This document shows, piece by piece, positions 1 to 56,060 of a stretch of DNA of 64,000 nt. Each line of letters opens with the position of its first letter. Within the stretch, counting starts at the first letter, position 1. Origin of the DNA: Gymnopus androsaceus JB14 (taxonomy: Eukaryota > Basidiomycota > Agaricomycetes > Agaricales > Omphalotaceae); the NCBI GenBank assembly GCA_009733575.1, contig ML769393.1, positions 1 to 64,000 on the forward strand, read 5' to 3'. The notes beneath the pieces were generated by a model. That model saw nothing but the letters and a program-made list of their open reading frames with translations. It ran no database searches and was not told where the DNA came from. Both the position numbers and the translations under genes were made by a program.

Positions 1-3000
1 ACATTATGCTTGTAAGATACAGTTGTATAGATGTACGGTATGGCTTGTGTACAAGTAGTTGAGGGAAATTTACTTGGAACATCTTTTGAACAACCACGTT
101 GACTTTTGACAACAATGATTAGACTTTTAAATCTTGTCATTGCCGGTCAACCATCACCCCGGGTGATGTCCGTCACCGTGGATGTAGTACTATGGGAGGC
201 TGGTTACTCGGCCACCCCTTAGTACCTGGCCATACGATACTGTACCTACAGCTGTCCACAGGGCTTGGGTTTGTCTAAAAGGGCTTTCATGTTGTAGAGT
301 AGTATACTACAAAGCTCCAAACAAGCGGTGGAGGTGCGTGAAAGCTCCTCGGAGTCATGATTGATCAGATACCGGCGCGAGATGCCGTAAAAAAGTGATT
401 TCCCAAGCCATTTTGAGACTGAATTGGCCGTATCCAATGCTCATCCTCGGGAGACGTGTGCACCATTCCAGCCACGGGCGATGTAGCTCTAATGATGCCT
501 CTGTGAGTAAGGCTTGGAGTTTCGTGACTATTTATTTGAACCGCTCTCGAAACTCCAGGCTCCGTGACCCTTTGCTCCCCATGTTCTCGTGAACCCCAGC
601 TGGCATAGCTTTCATCTTAACTTCTTAAGCACGAATGGCAATCCACACATACAAAGAAGAGCCAACGCTTGAAGACGAATGAGGTTTACAGGAGGGATAT
701 TATGTTTCGAGGTCGATTTGATTCGAGTTTCGGTCTGCAAATTGTTCCTTGTATCGGTCTTAGGTACCGTGGAGCAGCTGAGGCGAATGCCGAGAGTCCA
801 GTGTAGATGTTTTCTAGCGTGCCAAAAATGAGAAGAGAACTGCAACGACATGTCTCTAGGTCGAAAAAGCAGAATTTAGGAAGAAGGGAAGTAGAGATAG
901 CTTCTGCAGGTTTATCCTCTGGATCATGGATAACGCAATGTGCGTTTATCCTCAGTCTCACACTAATCAGTTTATTTGGCCCCTCTAGCTATGGAAATCT
1001 AGTTTGCTGCGATAATTTTCAACAAGCCTCCAAAACTGGATAGTGAACATTAATAGTAACGAACACATTTTTGTCTTTGTGTTTTCGCTCATCCCATCTA
1101 TGATTTTCAACAGCTTTTCCTTCATAGAGTTTGAAGACTGCGATGATGAGTTAGATTTGTGCTGGGTATGAAAACCAACCAAACAACAATCACCCCAATC
1201 AGATATAATCCAAAAGGTTTAATTTAATGCGAGGAAGGAGGTTGTCGAAGGTTCCCTCGACTACTAATTGATTCAAAGAGAAAAGCACTTGACAGTTGAC
1301 ACAGATAGTGCGCAATGAACAAGGTTTTATATTTGGAGGGAGGTTTTGAAAAGCCAACTAACGTACGACGACGCGCTGAACTAATTGAGGGGAAAGCAAA
1401 CACCAAAGCACGGGTCAAGTACACCGACTCAACAAACAACTTTGCGTATCCACGGTGAAACACCAAAGCATGGGTCAAGTACGCCGACTCAACAAACGAC
1501 TTTGCGTATCTCGGGAGCCTTTACGTCGCCGTGCAATGATACTCCAACTCTCAGGGATTCCCGCGAGTTACCTAACAAGCTTATACGACCGCTGCGCAAG
1601 TCACTCGAGTAGGCGTTTTTAACACACTCAGCGAAGAGCGGGCAAGGGGTAGAATCTGTTGGTAAAGCTAGGTAACACTCCGAGAAGCTTCCTCCCTAAA
1701 ACTAGACCAAGCCGACACTTGGGTCCAAGACCTTTCCTAATCAACAATGGGCTCGTCGAGGTGTGCACGTTAGGCTCCACCTGCGGTCCTAAGACTGATG
1801 TGACCTCTCTTCGAGATGAAAACCAGGAATGCTCGACTTAATAGCCGGGAAGTAGAATGAACAGCCTCAGTATTATCGAGGTTACAAGAAGGCCACCCAT
1901 TTCAAAGGTTGTAGAGGACGATGCAGACGCGTCTGAGCGTGTACGAATCACTACAGGTCCTAAGATAGAACTGCGTTTCAGGTATCAAGTCTAACTTTTC
2001 ATTCCGAGATAGAATAGCTACCCTTATATACTGAGCGAGATATATGAAAATAGGAAAATGAGAGAAACTGAGCGAGATAGGATGAAACAGAGTAAGTAAA
2101 ATAGAAAAAGATAAATAATGTCCATATATGCGTGTATACTATGGTTTTTGCCTCGACATTTTCCTGCCTTGTTCGTTTGTCTTCCTCGATTGGGTCGACT
2201 TTGGGATTTTGGTCCGAATCGACTCGAGTCATTTGCCTTTTTACAAGGCTCGCCAGTTCCTTTAGCAGAACAGCCCTCGGAAGTATTTCTATGTTTTTCC
2301 TTGCCAATGGGAGACTGGTTATTATCCCTAGTTCCGCGCGGTCTCGAGTCTAGATGCCTGGTAGCATATGGATCTCGGTAAAACACTGAGGCTCGGATAG
2401 AAATACTCCTTGGTCCTTCCGTGCTCTAGAAGTAGCTACAGCAAGTGGGTCATGTGGCCGCGTTGGACTGCCGCGGCTATCTGCCTGAGCACTTTCCAGC
2501 GAGCGTCAACTTTGAGGGCACCCGTTAGGGTACTTCCTCATCTCGGTCCACCTTGCTTCGTTTAATAAACTTGAGTGTCGTTTAGACTCCTCGGTGAGCT
2601 GATCGCGGAAGCGATGCCTCATTAAGACTTCGATCCCTTGGGTATATCCTTCAATGACCTAGCCTAGTATAACTGGTAGGTGGGCTCGTTTATCTGCCTC
2701 GGTCAGCAACTTGTTATCCAACAAGCTTGCCTCGCTACACCATACCACGCATAGGACTTTGATCGAGGCGCATTCACAAAGTTAAGTATGGTACCATTGC
2801 GCGTACCGTTACTCTGCAACCTCTTGGGTAGAATAGGTCCTTGGTAGATTTTAACTATCAGCTCGGGCTCACTATAGTTCTCTTATTGACCGTGTTTTGT
2901 TACCAACAGAACCTAGGATTATTGGTTCTGCACAGTTCTAGCCTTAGCCAAAAAATTGGCGTATCAGCGAACCACTTAAGGTAATGGTAAGGAATGATTG

Positions 3001-3876
3001 CATTTCATTCTTCTTCACCCCCCGAGTTAGTCAAGTTCAATCTTCATGTAAATTATAGCAGTGAGCAAACCGGCAACCATCGAGAAGAAGATCGAGATCG
3101 ACTCAATCTGGGTCCTCTAACTTCCCGACTCCACCCCTTCCTTTAATTAAATTTCTTTCGGTAGACTTTTTACCAAATCTGAAGACTCTACGGAATCTTG
3201 ACAATTTGGCCTAGCTGTCAAAGCTGCTCTGATCGTGAGCGCTCAAGATCCCTGGTCAGCCCTCAGGCTTTTCGTCGACACTCTCGCAGGCCGCATCCAC
3301 ATTGAATGGAATAGCATCATATTATTCCTAAACAACTAGTAGTCCTTTCCCTCCACCAGCTCAACAATATCAAACTCCCATCCTGATGCAGAGTATCCGG
3401 GTCAGTCGTACGCGTATTCAGTCAGAACTCATGATTGTCGAATTCCAGATCTGTATCTGTTAACCTTGGGACCTTACAGCAAGGGTGAGTCAGCTGATAC
3501 TACCATCACCAGCATTGAATCTTGCTGGCAGAGAATCTTGATACTAGTTCTAGTACAAGGATACTGCTTGATCAATTGTATTGGATGGGATGGTGGTGTT
3601 GTGATGACTCGGCAAGTGAGCGGCGAGCCTTGAAAGCTTGAACAATTGAATTCATCATACCATGGAGGGAGATATCAGCCTATCAGGGATGTGGAGATTG
3701 AGAGGTGAAGATGGAGGAGTTCAGAATCAGAGTTGGAGAGATGTAGAAATGCCTCTTGATTGGGTGCTGGAGTGCAGTATTGATTCAGAAGATTGGTTAG
3801 TTAGAGTCTTGTTGAAAAGCTGAGAGAACTTGGGATCATTGAAGGGATGATGGTAGGTATCACATTACTTATAGGG
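1..3876. other. Gene-poor left region, possible decayed retroelement
   Basis: No open frame here has the look of a conserved gene. On the minus strand between about 2720 and 2000, charged residue-rich reading frames continue across several stops and frame changes. This could be the relic of a retroelement gag-type frame, but I see no reverse transcriptase, protease or integrase motif that would prove it. A plus-strand stretch near 1660-1760 contains a short Arg/Pro-rich piece faintly like the end of a gypsy integrase; I give it little weight. No paired long terminal repeats were recognised. Confidence 0.25.
1391..1510. repeat. 60-bp tandem duplication (two copies)
   Basis: Two adjacent copies of a 60-bp unit. 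The block beginning CACCAAAGCA occurs at 1401 and again at 1461, followed in both by GGGTCAAGTAC, CCGACTCAACAAAC and ACTTTGCGTATC. The copies differ at only a few positions, so the duplication looks recent. No function is suggested. Confidence 0.8.
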
Positions 3877-4153
3877 CATCAGCAAAACCTGTATCGGCTG
3901 GGACCCGCTGGTAGCACTGGCTAGCACTGGCTAGCACTGGCTAGCACTGGCTAGCACTGGCTAGCACTGGCTAGCACTGGCTAGCACTGGCTAGCACTGG
4001 CTAGCACTGGCTAGCACTGGCTAGCACTGGCTAGCACTGGCTAGCACTGGTAGCACTGGCTAGCACTGGCCGGCACTAGCCGGCACATCCCAGTGCCGGC
4101 AAGCGCTTGACAGCACTTCCAGAGAGTCCCAGTCAATACAGGTTTTGCTGATG
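3877..4153. mobile_element. CATCAGC-family TIR element E1 with decamer array
   Basis: A 277-bp element bounded by inverted repeats: CATCAGCAAAACCTGTA at the left and its exact complement at the right. GGG lies directly outside both ends (3874-3876 and 4154-4156), a possible 3-bp target duplication. The inside is almost entirely a 10-bp tandem repeat plus GC-rich words such as GCCGGCACTGG. It has no coding capacity, so it is a non-autonomous element or MITE. Six related elements or ends occur in the window. The transposase superfamily is unknown. Confidence 0.8.
3911..4080. repeat. Tandem array of CTAGCACTGG (10-bp unit)
   Basis: Thirteen perfect consecutive copies of CTAGCACTGG run from 3921 to 4050, preceded by one variant copy (3911-3920) and followed by three shorter or degenerate copies. 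The array forms the body of element E1. The unit shares the CACTGG word with non-tandem parts of related elements at 55-57 kb, so the array probably grew from a word already present in the family by slippage. Confidence 0.95.
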
Positions 4154-4269
4154 GGGCTAAGGATTCTGCATCCAGAAATGGGAATAACCAACAGTATAAA
4201 TTAAGCCCGTTGTAAGCAGAAGGCACTGTACTACCCATCATATCACTTACTAGTACGACATCATCTGCA

Positions 4270-5178
4270 TCAGCAAAACCTGGGTGTACTGGACAGAGCT
4301 GGACAGCTCTGTCCAGCACTCATAGCACCCATAGCACCCATAGCAAGGTCCCCATCTGTCCAGAGCTATGGACTGCTATGGGTTGCTATAAGTTGCTATG
4401 GATTTCAGGTGAATGTCATCTGTCAGGGCAGGGATTCAATTCAAAACTGAATACATGACCACTTTTGGAATTGATTCTCTCAATTAGTTGCGAGACCATA
4501 ATAATTATAATAAAATCATATAATATTGTCATGGTCATTGTAGTAGATGTCACAGTAGCGATTCGGAAAGTACAGTGTAAATAAAACTATAGTACTGTAA
4601 ATACTAGATGGCAACACTACTGAAACTTAATTAGATATATCAAACAAAGTTGAGGGGTGCAACTTACCAATGATGTCTAAACCAAAGCGACTTGGAGCTT
4701 TGACTTGGAAAAAAAAGGAAGCTGGGGAAGGAAGGAAGGAAGGGAAGGAAGTTACAACATTGACGCATCGATGCTACAGTGGCGGCGCTTTGGAATGGAA
4801 CAGGGGTATATAAAAATGCACCCATCTCCGGCCAATCACCACATATGGTAATTATCTAAGTGGTGGATTTTGGTGGGATAGGCACCTAATTCATACCCAC
4901 AATTTGGCTGGAGCATAGAGGTGCAGTAAGCACAAAAAATCGCATATTTTGCCAACCTCTGTTCCATTCCGAAGCGCCGCCACTGTATATAGCATTAGCG
5001 GGAGAGACTGACAGCTGTCAAGATGTTGACAGCTAGGTCAAGCACTCGGTTATCTCCCAGGAGCTCATAGTAGCTCATAGCAAGCCATAGCATTTCATAG
5101 CAGCCATAGTGCTATGACCTGCTATGGCTTGCTATAGATTGCTATGGCCTCTATGGCATTGCCCAGGTTTTGCTGATG
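4270..5178. mobile_element. CATCAGC-family TIR element E2 (with nested element)
   Basis: Left end CATCAGCAAAACCTGGG at 4270; right end is its complement, ending at 5178. Next to the ends lie many copies of CATAGCA/TGCTATG words in both orientations, giving strong hairpin potential. The block CCATAGCAAGGTCCC is shared with element E3 at 20.1 kb. A second, unrelated TA-flanked element sits inside at 4777-4985, and the AT-rich middle has no open frame of note. No clear target duplication is visible. Confidence 0.7.
4777..4985. mobile_element. TA-flanked MITE (Tc1/mariner-like, Stowaway type)
   Basis: A 209-bp element starting CAGTGGCGGCGCTT and ending in the complement. The inverted repeats are about 25 bp with one mismatch (left TTTGGAATGGAAC, right complement TTCGGAATGGAAC). 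TA flanks both sides (4775-4776 and 4986-4987). TA duplication plus a CAGT start is the usual signature of Tc1/mariner-derived MITEs. It is inserted within E2, so it arrived later. Confidence 0.85.
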
Positions 5179-48660: not shown

Positions 48661-48668
48661 TCTTTATC
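48661..48668. repeat. Left 8-bp target-site duplication TCTTTATC
   Basis: TCTTTATC directly precedes the terminal repeat CAAGGGGGT of the large transposon; an identical copy follows the right end at 54896-54903. Confidence 0.92.
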
Positions 48669-48710
48669 CAAGGGGGTACCGGGATTTCGGGCCGTTACAC
48701 TCTGGTGGGT

Positions 48711-48730
48711 GGGTGGTTGGGCTCGCCAGG
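48711..48730 (+). repeat. Left subterminal repeat of the transposon
   Basis: GGGTGGTTGGGCTCG, matched in the same orientation by GGGTGGTTGGCCTCG at 54821 near the right end; both are followed by an AAATTTT-rich run. Direct subterminal copies are candidates for transposase binding. Confidence 0.55.
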
Positions 48731-49064
48731 CCACTAAATTTTTTTTTCAACCAATTATAATGGAGCCTTCAGAGGCCTCCAAACTTTCCAAAAAAGTGTT
48801 TTTACAATGCAGGATACTAACCCAACATTCTTCGGCCTTCAAAGAGCGTGTCAGCATCCATTTTGACCTGTGTCATTACTTTTGACACATACTCTGATGC
48901 GCCCAAGATGCGCCATGCAGTCCAAACTTGGTACTAGCTTATAATACTTCTTGAATAATAACAGCTATTGTACATAGTAGTGTTTATACAGTTTACACTT
49001 CTTCTATGAGTGACTGCGCGATTCGATCGTAGAGTAGTTAACCGGAAGCAAATGCGAGTCAAAT

Positions 49065-52000
49065 ATGACCCAACGTCTCCAACAAAACAACCACCAGCAA
49101 CTGCAAGCAAACATCCCGAGCATGATAGACTCTGATAGCGAGCTACCTGATGCTTCTACTGTAAGTCATATACTGAAGTAGTAATCTAAGAAAAGCTCAC
49201 CCGATAGTAGATCCCAGTCATAAACGGAAAGGCCAAGTGTCCGCGATGTGATACAGACATGGCGGTTGGGACTTCTGGCGTTCAAAACATGTATAAGACC
49301 CACATCGACACCGCCAAATGTGTAGCCGAGAGAAAAAAGCAGAAATCCAAGAAGAAACAGCCGAGCATCTTTGGGTTTCTGAAAAAAAAACCAAAAGACA
49401 TACCAACTTCAGTATCAGCTCCCCTTCCTATTGCATCCACTAGCGGGATCTCAGCTACAACATCAACATCTCCATTGCACCCTGTGCCAAAGCTTCCCTC
49501 AAATCCTGCGCCAGAATCGAATATTACATCTCCAAATACCCCTGTCAGACCTGTGCCGACATTCTTGCAGGACTTACATGCGAATATGACCTGTCTTTCC
49601 CTGGATGTGCCAGAGAGCACCGATTTCGATGTGTTGGCTGGTTTCTGTAATCCAGAGCTGTGTGTTGCACCCGATGTTCCTCCAGACGAGCTCTGGGAGC
49701 AAGGCGTAAACCATGTGATGCATGTGTTTCAAGGGAAAAGTGAAGAGGAGATGGAGAGCTTGGTGCGGAGAGGGTCTAAAGGCATCGAAGCGTTCTATCG
49801 CTTTGCAAGATACTTTGTTGAGGAGCGAGGACTGAATGAGGTTATGTTTGAGTCAGCAATAGAGAGGCTAAACAAGGCGATGAGTCCCTGGTGAGTGATA
49901 ATTGACAATCTAGTTAAACATTCCTAATGTTGTCGATTTGAAGGCTCACTGAAGTAGAGAGGCCTAGACATATATCCCTACCCAAAAATTACCTCGATCC
50001 CCCTACAGAGTCTCACCGTGACACATCCCCGCTTCCAGATATTATTGATATCACCTCCGAGAGCCCACCTACATCTATTCAATCCATCCGTTACTCCCAA
50101 TCGCACCATATCCAACAATGTCGAGGGTATACTGTGACTCTTCCTACCGGATTGTCAGCGTATCTTCTGTATCCATTTGCGCTTCATCATTACCAGAATC
50201 TCCCTTGGACTTTCGTTGTCGAAAAGGATCAAGAAATCATTTTACATGCGCACGAATGTCGGTGGAAGAAATTGGCACCAGGATTGACAGCTTGCGCTGC
50301 ATGCAAAAGTCTGGAAGATAATCACACGTTGATGGGCATTGTAGAGCGAATGAAAAACGGGACACGCCCAAATACGAACTACATGTACAATGGCCACCAG
50401 CATATGGTAACCCGAATACAGCAGATGGATCGCCAGCTCAATACCTTGAAGCTCCGTATTACCAATGATTCTCGTCTATTGCATGGTCGTGCGGTGGCTC
50501 TAGATGATCACAAACGATTACTACGCGTGTTCCGCGATGGGAAATTGGAGAACCTTGACCGGTTCTTACGAGTTGGGATGAAGAGAGGACTGGGAGTCAA
50601 AGGTTTAATCTCTCTATATGAACGAGCTGAAGCAGGCCTGTACCATCCAAAGTCGTATGAGAAGGAGGATTACCTGCGAGGGATTGTGTATTGGCGAATG
50701 GGCGGTGTCAGGATGGCAGAATTTGCTCACCGTGCTAATGGAATGCCTGGTATCTCCACCATTCGAGCAAACTCCACCGTTGCAACCATTATCCCTTCCC
50801 CCGCAACACCCTTACTCTCTGAAATTGTTTCCAATGCCAAAACTGTTCTTGAAGTAGACGTTATAGCAAGTCCGGAAGAGACTACGATCCACCAAGTCTT
50901 CATGCTTGACGAGATTGCAACTGAGCAGCGAATCCGATATGATGACCAGACAAATCACTTCCTAGGCGTGTGTCGAGAGCATGCAGGAAACGTAACCCTG
51001 GAGTTCAACGATGTGGATGATGTTGAACAGCTTTACAAAAGTCTTGATGATGGGGATGTTCATCATGCGACAGAGGTATGTTCTCACACTGTCAATGTTC
51101 CTTCAGTCTTAATAGTACCATATATTTAGGCCACTATCGGAGCAATAGGAATCCTTTCCGGCAATAAACGACTTTATAATGCTCGTCCCATCCTTGTCTC
51201 AGGAACTTGCAAGCGCGAAACTGGCCTTCAACAAGCCAAAGTCATCAAAACGGGTCTGGATGCACTGAATAGTCTCCAGCCTAGGATTTGTCTTCGAACG
51301 GTATCAATTGCTTCTGACGGAGAAGCAAAGCGGGGAAAAGCATTCGAAACACTGACGTTCAAGCATGAGCTTACGCCCGAGTCGAATATATACCCGCTAT
51401 TATCTCCGTTGAAGTATTTGAATCTCTTAGTTGGTGATGATGACCTTACTTGCGACAAAGACTTTCGACACATTCTCAAACGAACTCGTGATCTCCTTCT
51501 CCGTGCCCGGGGTATGAATATCCTGGATGTCCACATCACACCGAGCATCCTAAAGTCACATCTTCGTGAAGCCGGCCATACAGATGTGCATATCGAGTCA
51601 CTTTTCAAACCTAGTGATAAACAAGATGTTCCAACAGCCTACCAGCTTTTACGTGACCTCTGGGCACTTCCTTCTAGTTCCAGCACAAGCCCTCGTGTCC
51701 AGGCTGAACGGAAAGCGATAAAGCTAATCGGAACCCTTTTCTACGAGTATCTTGTACTTCCCTATATCAGTGTCGAGCTTTCACTTTCAGAGCAATTGCA
51801 GCATCTGAGCTCGGCTGCTTTCCTCTCCCTGGTACTTTATCGTTGCTCTGGCAAAGACTTTATTCCAACGCTTCTGTATCAGGACATTCAGATCTTGATC
51901 AAGAATGCCCTTTTCTGCGTTGCCAAAGGAAAGATCGACATACCTAATGGCCTTTTCTGGCTTGCACTCCTTGGAACCGATAGACTTGAACAGCTGTTTG

Positions 52001-54755
52001 GAATCCTTCGTTCCATCATCGGCAATGATTGTAATGTCGACATCCTGCAGCTGGTTCATCGACTCACTGGTACCACCGAACTCTCCAACATTTTGGCAGA
52101 GCATCCAGAATGGGACCGAACGCCCAGACGTCTTCGTTTACCTGCCGTTGATAGGCAGGGTAAAGAGATCTTGGGTTCGAGTATTGACCATGTCTCCCCT
52201 GCTACCTGGAAAGGAGATGTGCGAACCTCCGTAGTGTCATTGCTGAACTGCTGGAAGGTTGCACGTTCCAGGGTTGAAACCGTGTTCCCAGATCTGAAAC
52301 CGCTCTTTGCGTCACTTGACACAGAGTCTCGTTCCGTGGATACTCTTCGTCCCAAGGGTGAGCTGCTCATTGGTCGTCGTTTACCTTCGGATGACAATGA
52401 GGATGACGATGCTGATCCTGTGGCTCTGGCAACTGGTACAGAGTCTGCAACGTCTTCAAAGACCTTCGATGTGTTTGGAGAAAACTCCGGTATCCGTGAC
52501 CTAGAGGATACTATTGCCGAAGAAGTTGCAGAAAGCACCTCAGAGTCTGTCAACAAATTCACCACGAAGATTCTAGACAACGGGAAACTAATAAACAAAT
52601 CCCGATTTCTGTCGCAGTTTGTGCGCAAACGCAAATATGACCCTAGCTCAACCGACCGTTTGCGACGAGTGCAACAAATGAGTCGCTTTTCAACGGACAA
52701 AGCCAATGGCTCCTCTTCTGTCATCATCGACAATTCTGCGGTTTACGGTGACCAGCTGCTATTGCTCAGTGAGCCTGTCGCCTCAATATTATCTTGCGAA
52801 GGGCAACTGTTCCTTTGCATTGGTGATATTACTGGAATTCAGATGGGAAGAACATCGGTTGAGCAAATCGACACAGACACTCTTCTCGAAGAAGGCGTTA
52901 CAGTTGAATTTCAGCTTACTCACCTGGAACCTGCCACTTCCGACGACGATCCAAGCAGCGAGAACGACTGGTGCTCATCCTACAACTCGGACCTCACCCC
53001 AGCCTTGTTTACTGTTCCCGGACACCTTGTACAAGCTGTGAATCCGGTAATTTCGGTACCAGTCAATCGTGCACAGAAAACATCTTACCTGTTTGAAAGT
53101 GCGGTCTTGGTTGCTCTAGCTCAAGAGCTTCTCCATCGTCTTGCTGCCTTCGATGGATCCAGAACTCTCAAGATACCGCATATTAAGCGGTCTTCTCACT
53201 TCCCTTATCTGACCACGAAAGGTAAATGGCAAATTTTTTCGCTGCAACTTGGAGCTGCTGACCTTTCTATTACTATAGGTGAAGCGGCTTTTCTATGTGA
53301 ACACGATGGTGTTGGCCGGAACGATGTCAATGGGGGTGTACTTTGTTCATCCTGTATAAATCCATCAGTTCAACTCGACATCTCGAAACCACAGTCCATT
53401 CTCACTCACATGGGAGCTCATATCCTCCATGGCACTACCCCTCGATCTACTGAGCCATGCGGATTCTGCTTGTCCCCCTTCCCTCAATGTTTGTTCTATC
53501 TCACACGGACTAATCAGATTAGTAGCAGCTCACGCGGCTGCCTTGTATTCAAGTCCATTGGGAAGATCAGCTACGCAGCTGCAGCCAAGTCAACTCAGGC
53601 CAATCCATGCAGTAACGTACCCATTCGGTGCCCTGTCTGCACTCAGATCGACCCAAACTCTCCCGCAATCTGGCGGTATAATGCAGAAGAGCATTTCAAG
53701 ATTCGTCACCCGAATATCAACCGCGCGAGCTATATGAACCTATGGGAGATATCTAATAGTGAGCGTGAAGCACTGGCAGTAGTATACCGCAGCCGACAGA
53801 AACAACCGTCTCGTCGTGGTCGAAAAAAGAGACAGCTAGAGCGTGGGCCAATTCCTATATCTGAAGCTCATTCTTCACGCATGATGCACAGGTGAGTTTG
53901 TCAAAACATTGTATTTTGCATCCAGTTATTGAAGTGCTCTATGTAATAGAATAACAGATCTCGAAACTGGACGCAGGTCAGGAGATCGATGCGACGATGA
54001 AGCAGATGATGGAGACGATGAGGTAGATGAAGGAGATGACAATGAAGAGGTAGACGAAGGAGACGACAACGAAGAGGATGGCAATGATGATGATGGAGAT
54101 AAAGCGGAGCTGGAACCGCAACCAGAAAGGGAGGATAGCAATTTGGACAGCGCCACTTGGAAGCTGTGGTCGGAAAAAAGCTTCGAGGAGATGGGAGTAG
54201 ATGATGAGGATGATATAGAACTCAGCTCGGGTGTTTTCCATCATCATCCTCCTGCCAATTCACCATCACCGATCCTTCAAACAGTTTCCTTACCCAGACC
54301 ATCTACTGCTGCATTGTCAAGTCCTCCCGAATCACTCAAAGACCCTTTCCCAATTGTATCCGACTCACATATACCCATTCCGGACCCTCGTGAACGACCA
54401 GAAGAAGCCTTGATAGATGGAAGTATACCAGCAGATTCTGGCGGTGTGGTTCAAACGGCACGAAGATCAGGTAGAGTGAGAAAGCGGACAGTGATAGATG
54501 CACTCTCCGAGTGCACTTGTGGTAATGTGGTATCAGTCGAGGATAGAGATGATGAACAAGGTGCAGAATGTACAAGACCTGGATGCGAGACCGTTTGGGT
54601 GAGTTGTTCTTTGCTATTCAAGTGTTATTGACTTACTGGATATCTCTCAGTATCACCGAAATTGTGTCGGACTTGATGCATTTGTACCCAAGCGGTGGAT
54701 TTGCGACGCTTGTAAAGCTTCTGAGAAACGGGAAGGGAAGCGGAGACGGATTTAG
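49065..54755 (+). CDS. P-element/THAP9-like transposase with PHD finger, 1,807 residues
   Basis: Exons 49065-49160, 49211-49890, 49944-51075, 51130-53891, 53950-54598 and 54651-54755 sum exactly to 1,808 codons. Parts: BED-like finger at about residues 42-69 (CPRC...H-x5-C) then a Lys-rich nuclear signal; a Ser/Pro linker; a core with three acidic sites: D581 in FMLDEIATEQRIRYD, D699 in SIASDGEAKRG, and D920/E923 in TDRLEQLFGILR. The last repeats the D-x-x-E-x-x-F arrangement of P-element transposases, and the 220 residues between sites two and three could hold the inserted domain of that family. Downstream are Cys/His clusters (EHDGVGRNDVNGGVLCSSC; CPVCTQI...H-x4-H), an AT-hook-like RRGRKKR, a Glu/Asp-rich tract and a C-terminal C4HC3 PHD finger (CTCG...C-x4-C...YHRNC...WICDAC). 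Core homology is inferred from motifs, not from a search. Confidence 0.85.
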
Positions 54756-54783
54756 CGTCAGCAGTGACGGTGACTGCTTACAT

Positions 54784-54813
54784 ATGTCACGCTGTAACTC
54801 ATATGTGACATCA
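54784..54813. repeat. Subterminal palindrome near right end of the transposon
   Basis: ATGTCAC at 54784 and GTGACAT at 54805 form a dyad separated by a short AT-rich spacer, between the transposase stop codon and the right subterminal repeat. Possible protein-binding site; no left-end counterpart inside the element. Confidence 0.4.
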
Positions 54814-54820
54814 CGTAGTT

Positions 54821-54840
54821 GGGTGGTTGGCCTCGAAAGG
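54821..54840 (+). repeat. Right subterminal repeat of the transposon
   Basis: GGGTGGTTGGCCTCG, counterpart of 48711, 65 bp from the right terminus (42 bp at the left). Confidence 0.55.
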
Positions 54841-54895
54841 TCCTTAAAATATTTTTCGGCTTCGTGTAATTAAATATTTTTTTCGGACCCCCTTG

Positions 54896-54903
54896 TCTTT
54901 ATC
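54896..54903. repeat. Right 8-bp target-site duplication TCTTTATC
   Basis: Exact copy of 48661-48668 immediately after the right terminal repeat ACCCCCTTG. Confidence 0.92.
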
Positions 54904-55024
54904 CCTTCCTAAAAGCGAATGTAGCAGTCCCGCAAAAGCTTTTTTTTGTACATGATATTAGTCAAATCTGTCATTCGCGTGTCTTCAAGTTATCTGGAGT
55001 CTGGACGATTAGGCTTTGGGGCTG

Positions 55025-55127
55025 CATCAGCAAAACCTGTATTGACTGGGACCCTCTGGGAGTGCTTGCCGGCACTGCCGAGTCCTGTCCAGTGCCGGCG
55101 AGCGCTTGCCAGCGCTCCCAGAGGATG
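55025..55127. mobile_element. Truncated CATCAGC-family left end
   Basis: CATCAGCAAAACCTGTATTG opens a GC-rich piece with GCCGGCACTG and CCAGTGCCGGC words as in E1, but no matching right terminus follows; the sequence changes to the duplicated nitrate-reductase upstream region near 55127. It is a broken copy. Confidence 0.6.
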
Positions 55128-56060
55128 TTATGGATCAACGTGCTCCACCTTCAGTTCATCTTATAAGCACCTTCGCTCCCAACTGGAGCTCAAGAAGTGA
55201 TGGCATAAGCTTCAAGAAGATCGGACCTTGATGCTTAGGCTACTTACAAAGAGAACTGGGTTCCGCCGTTACGGCGTACACCTGCACATCAGCAAAACAT
55301 GATGCGGTCAGTCCCAAGCCAGTCCTTGCAAGTGCTGGACAGCGCTTCCAGCGCCCCAGTCCTTCAGGGTCTAGATGCACTGGTCGGTGCTGGCCAGAAC
55401 TTCCAGAAGCTTCCAGAGGCCTCAAAATTACCTTATTTGGAAATAATAAAGAGATGTCATACGATCTTATATTTTTGACAGCACTGGCAAGCGCTGGTTG
55501 GTTCTGGCCAGTGCTGGGAGCTCTGGGAGTGCTGGGAATTTTAAGTGTTGCTGTTGGAATTAAAATCCAAAATACAGGTTTTGCTGATGTGCCCACCAAG
55601 TTGAACACACACCTTCTATGCAGCCAGGAGGTGTTTTGACCCTTATAGACCCTTATCTAGCCTCGTAGTCAGTAGTATTCAGGTAGTAACACTTTCCACC
55701 TATAAATATTCAAACGTGCTCTATTAAACTTTGCTTGAAACCTTCACCTTCCCCCCTCATATCTCTATTATTAACTGTGTAGCCAAGTATGTAGCTGGAT
55801 GATTTGACCTCCATCCCTGGTGTCCTACCTTGGTGAAATCTCCTCCTGCCTCAGAAAATCATTTGGGATTGAGTGAGAGCAGTGAGTACGCAAGGTTCAA
55901 TGAAGGGACCCCCCTCGGACGACATGACAAGAGGCTGACCGGGAAGGTGATTCTGCTCAAAGCGCTGTTTACACTTTTATTCCCCTTTCCCTTTCCCTTT
56001 CCCGCTTCCCTCCGCCCATCTTACCTGGCCAAAAGCTTGCTACTATCAAACCGGAATCAG
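55128..56060 (+). pseudogene. Partial duplicate of nitrate reductase upstream region and 5' exon
   Basis: Matches 56972-57610 in order: the GAGCTCAAGAA-TGATGGC block, the TGAACACACA/CTTCTAT block, CCTCGTAGTCA, then coding pieces NHLGxSESSEYAxFxEGTP and LTGK followed by the same intron start (GTGATTCTG). The start codon is lost and the copy ends within the intron. Element E5 is inserted in this copy but not in the intact one. No product is expected. Confidence 0.75.
55287..55589. mobile_element. CATCAGC-family TIR element E5
   Basis: A 303-bp element with left end CATCAGCAAAACATGATG and right end the complement of CATCAGCAAAACCTGTATT. The body has CCAGTGCTGG, AGCGCTTCCAGCGC and similar palindromic words. 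The right half is clearly homologous to that of E6 (CCTTATTT, AAATAATAAAGAGATG, GCTGGGAATTTTAA). It is absent from the paired position in the duplicated copy (about 57149), so an empty site exists for comparison. Confidence 0.8.

Follow-up and report, generated by a model that had tools for sequence, protein, structure and literature searches.

A full-length, coding-intact transposon of probable P-superfamily kinship in the mushroom Gymnopus androsaceus

P elements make 8-bp target-site duplications (TSDs). The Drosophila-type P element has a THAP zinc finger at its N-terminus, a feature outside the superfamily signature described below, and the Drosophila transposase has an insertion domain that binds GTP and about 220 residues after the catalytic glutamate. 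The published definition of the P superfamily comprises an RNase H-like core, its DDE residues placed in β1, in or just after β4 and in the α4 helix, and a [C/D](2)H motif directly after β5 (PMC8230255). In basidiomycetes, P elements are already known from rust fungi: a rust genome paper of 2011 reports P-1_PSt, at a time when P elements were not known in Dikarya, and describes for Melampsora larici-populina intact P elements with duplications of 8 bp (PMC3164196). Here we analyze a window of 64,000 nucleotides from Gymnopus androsaceus JB14 (contig ML769393.1, positions 1 to 64,000, part of contig C11 in our numbering). It holds an element that is very probably a cut-and-paste DNA transposon, full-length and with an intact coding sequence, belonging to the P superfamily or its closest sister and to a lineage found in many Agaricomycetes. 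No description of this lineage was found in a literature search, which did not cover Repbase, and the term P superfamily is absent from the available part of a study from 2025 on fungal transposons that carry TET/JBP genes (PMC12730594).

The element is flanked by an exact 8-bp TSD, TCTTTATC, and terminated by exact 9-bp terminal inverted repeats (TIRs), CAAGGGGGT (Table 1), as a first-pass annotation of this DNA had claimed. CAAGGGGGT occurs twice in the window, both times as the TIRs of the element, against 0.39 expected occurrences; two or more were seen in 6 of 100 shuffles. Further inward, both ends carry an inverted TTACAC block and, in direct orientation, a ~46-bp subterminal repeat. 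The direct GGTGGTTGG repeats reported earlier lie within it, with two copies inside the element.

The first and last ~82 bp of the element recur, wholly or partly, at a minimum of 29 other places in the source genome (83.3 Mb, 934 contigs), at least 20 of them found via the left end and at least 24 via the right. Eight places with an end missing, eroded or partly matched were left out. The first-pass annotation had looked to further elements with the same ends and different duplications, and these were found: both ends could be fixed in 21 elements. Their 8-bp duplications are perfect and differ from one another in 18, carry a single mismatch in two and carry three mismatches in one. For C128, which is among the 18, the duplication itself served to pick the right end between two positions one base apart. 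Since chance agreement of one 8-bp duplication is about 1 in 65,000 (4^8), 18 perfect cases out of 21 are beyond chance. The 8-bp duplication, a trait of the P superfamily, is found in the window element and in these 18, and for ends of this kind the short elements prove both the structure and the 8-bp rule. Most of the elements sharing the ends are ~390 bp long and 90–99% alike, the 1,121-bp C117 element being a separate type, and the TTACAC block is kept at the left end in most short elements. Only their ends match the window element, at 77–94% identity (pieces of at least 50 bases). The ~390-bp elements, which have the outer 82 bp in common with it, can be read as non-autonomous elements moved by this transposase or by that of a close relative.

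Empty sites were searched for by fusing the two flanks around a single copy of the 8-bp site and querying this join against the genome, for 22 elements including that of the window. Junction-crossing matches were found for 17 of the 22: C93, C108, C383, C682, C261b, C154, C195b, C228, C622, C5, C220, C136 (over 112 bp), C19, C45 (over 116 bp), C35, C141 and C9. The best matches of 14 of these are 92–99% identical and at most 3 bp off the join in length. Looser matches were obtained for C35 (87%, 6 bp shorter), C141 (92%, 7 bp shorter) and C9 (87%, 15 bp longer). What is matched at these empty sites is further copies of the repeats that the short elements entered, in the case of C682 a tandem array. 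No empty site was found for C472, C44, C128 and C117 among 40 scored of several hundred candidates each.

One ~390-bp element contains a nested 3.9-kb transposon (L078 ~469-4388; G000:C220, ~105851-109770) with the TIR TGGTAGTGGCCA and a 7-bp duplication, AATATAT. Its open reading frames encode 280 aa (coiled-coil-like sequence) and 680 aa with DLNESAFGILRR. It has no Pfam match above cut-off and 56 matching genome stretches, its own included, and is possibly another unnamed fungal transposon family.

Between the ends of the window element lies a spliced gene (49065-54755) with one open frame over seven exons and six GT-AG introns. The unbroken frame claimed by the first-pass annotation was confirmed, but not its length of 1,808 codons: the gene has 1,788 codons, 20 fewer, or 1,793 with an alternative acceptor. 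The outer exons are predicted by splice reading from sequence; introns 3 and 4 are the same in an NCBI partial model, P0001 (1,100 aa), and BT96DRAFT_850041, a partial protein of G. androsaceus JB14, matches the gene at 100%. A BED-like finger in the N-terminal part and a PHD-like finger starting at residue 1726 are named from residue spacing, and the PHD Pfam match of the latter (E 0.091) is below cut-off. In a scan of 126 stored proteins with our own patterns, each finger recurs in two; many of the others are fragments ending before those regions.

The structure model predicts a core of RNase H-like fold in which the acidic residues fall on the structural elements expected to carry them, and its best solved-structure match is the P element transposase. 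The P transposase scores 18.2 in the fold comparison and Hermes 7.3, with fold search E values of 7e-12 and 1e-2, respectively. The match covers P0001 residues 106-570 and extends past the RNase H core. The motifs DEI, SDGE and DRLEQLF, which had been proposed to form a DDE-type core, place D581, D699 and D920/E923 at the residue numbers given earlier. According to predicted secondary structure and conservation, the first aspartate lies in β1, the second in or just after β4 and the glutamate in the α4 helix. D747-x2-H750 is kept in all 120 alignment rows and sits just after a predicted strand, 355-358 of P0001. Both the DDE and the D(2)H residues are conserved. Ends, 8-bp duplications, open gene and P-like predicted core together support the earlier claim of a complete, intact P-element-like transposon.

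Counting the one in the window, at least 351 related proteins match at E ≤ 1e-3. Among the 120 listed none has a Pfam domain, and the named ones are hypothetical proteins of mushrooms. A divergent relative (L050:835-3954; G000:C91) has an open 1,040-aa frame with DGF in place of DEI and SDGD in place of SDGE, and named relatives are from Lenzites, Ceratobasidium and Tulasnella.

Several results weigh against an intact, mobile transposon of P kinship, some concerning its mobility and others its kinship. No second full-length copy was found in the 83 Mb genome, where the nearest protein relative is 45% identical and has stops inside. In their interiors the short elements have no match to the window element, so their mover may be the transposase of an unseen relative. 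The first-pass annotation had suggested looking for empty sites in sister strains. Within this genome they were found for short elements with such ends, but none was found for the window insertion. All 3 candidates for it were scored: two are the insertion's own flanks, and the third, on C831, is a partial left-flank copy (97% identical) ending 44 bp short of the junction. The element could be an immobile, single relic copy whose gene has stayed intact through chance or use by the host, which is compatible with P-type identity. We consider this unlikely, though deserving of real weight, as the TSD and TIRs are perfect, all seven exons are open and all catalytic residues are retained. The P-type element is complete and coding-intact, and possibly still mobile. 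In the matched stretches of the own-genome relatives there are 50 stops (34 TGA, 11 TAA and 5 TAG), with none in the window copy; the TGA excess is the pattern expected from decay of methylated CGA codons and suggests, without proving it, that these relatives may have been silenced by methylation.

Regarding kinship, the evidence at the level of sequence is weak. PF21787, the N-terminal part of the P-type RNase H domain, has hits in 13 of 26 members at E ≤ 1, the best at 4e-4; in nine tabulated members it matches six, all under the curated cut-off and over ~27-46 residues, and three not at all. Exon 3 of the window's own gene gives E 0.19 against the P-type Pfam model, a profile search against solved-structure sequences up to E 10 returned no transposase, and the N-terminal 389 residues have no Pfam match at E ≤ 1 and hence no THAP match. 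Such sub-threshold matches would fit a KDZ-type (Zisupton/Dileera) element, or another unnamed fungal superfamily that resembles P in fold alone. KDZ elements (Kyakuja, Dileera, Zisupton) are also fungal with 7- or 8-bp TSDs, and 8-bp TSDs are given for Zisupton and Dileera and CA..TG ends for Kyakuja (PMC12730594). This origin is nevertheless improbable, since the predicted fold match to P spans more than the RNase H core. Pfam includes a KDZ model, and unlike KDZ elements the mushroom clade shows no such domain among the matches to Pfam that 26 members give at E ≤ 1, although a missing profile match is compatible with a distant member. A hAT-superfamily element would also make 8-bp TSDs and have an insertion domain splitting its RNase H core, which a hAT dimerisation region would follow; it is more improbable still, as the P transposase beats Hermes on both fold measures and the hAT Pfam match is under cut-off and occurs in one of 26 members.

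The P-type mushroom element shares with the Drosophila P transposase (PDB 6p5a/6pe2) and human/zebrafish THAP9 the 8-bp TSD, the DDE residues in an RNase H core, [C/D](2)H after β5 and the predicted core fold. Unlike these, it has a BED-like finger without a THAP match and subterminal repeats in direct orientation, and the similarity of the mushroom proteins to P profiles is below curated cut-offs. Unlike Drosophila P, its protein extends 865 residues past the catalytic glutamate, with a barrel-like domain and a PHD-like finger. Nothing in the catalytic core or the 8-bp rule is unusual for the P superfamily; what is new is the surrounding architecture, with a putative DNA-binding finger and a tail of its own. 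To our knowledge, a BED-like finger with a chromatin-reading tail is an arrangement known in no P element. As a bold guess from weak fold matches and the finger motif, which we regard as doubtful, a BED-like finger may have replaced THAP in the Agaricomycete P-type clade, which may have gained a C-terminal chromatin-reading module (Tudor/BAH-like barrel and PHD-like finger) steering insertion to marked chromatin. The rust P elements (Repbase P-1_PSt, P-1_MLP and P-2_MLP, and the non-autonomous P-N1/N2_MLP), compared by description only, are also from basidiomycetes, those of Melampsora having 8-bp TSDs (PMC3164196).

The transposase would bind the subterminal GGTGGTTGG repeats, probably via its N-terminal zinc finger, and pair the two element ends. 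The D581/D699/E923 metal site would excise the element, which would be joined to target strands cut 8 bp apart, and host repair would convert the staggered cut into the 8-bp duplication. The large set of relatives can now be read as P-type transposases and offers a distant non-animal comparison for P-transposase structure work. Because the ends are defined, the gene is coding-intact and short elements have matching empty sites, an excision assay is directly feasible.

Table 1 Features of the P-element-like transposon in the G. androsaceus window
Feature	Position	Strand	Details
Whole element	48669..54895	+	6,227 bp; basis: TSD, TIR, ends recurring at 29 other places (lower bound)
Left TSD TCTTTATC	48661..48668	.	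basis: identity with 54896-54903
Right TSD TCTTTATC	54896..54903	.	basis: identity with 48661-48668
Left TIR CAAGGGGGT	48669..48677	+	9 bp, exact
Right TIR CAAGGGGGT	54887..54895	-	9 bp, exact
Inner inverted block TTACAC, left end	48695..48700	+	element positions 27-32
Inner inverted block TTACAC, right end	54864..54869	-	element positions 27-32 from that end
Left subterminal direct repeat	48705..48750	+	contains GGTGGTTGG at 48712; candidate transposase-binding site
Right subterminal direct repeat	54814..54859	+	contains GGTGGTTGG at 54822
Exon 1	49065..49160	+	splice reading
Exon 2	49211..49890	+	C-x2-C-x-H-x-C BED-like zinc finger at 49238-49321 (residues 42-69)
Exon 3	49944..51075	+	first catalytic Asp, D581, at 50908-50910
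Exon 4, catalytic residues	51130..53221	+	D699 at 51316-51318; D747-x2-H750 at 51460-51471; D920/E923 at 51979-51990
Exon 4, barrel-like domain	52753-53025	+	residues ~1178-1268
Exon 5	53279..53891	+	Cys/His-rich region, from sequence
Exon 6	53950..54598	+	acidic linker; first part of PHD-like finger from 54512
Exon 7	54651..54755	+	second part of PHD-like finger (to 54713), then stop

About 0.4 kb to the right of the element, a ~300-bp repeat (window 55287-55590) lies among inverted repeats at 55014-55600. Copies of it, 74–89% identical, were found at about 40 further places in the genome, with 40 of 313 candidates scored.
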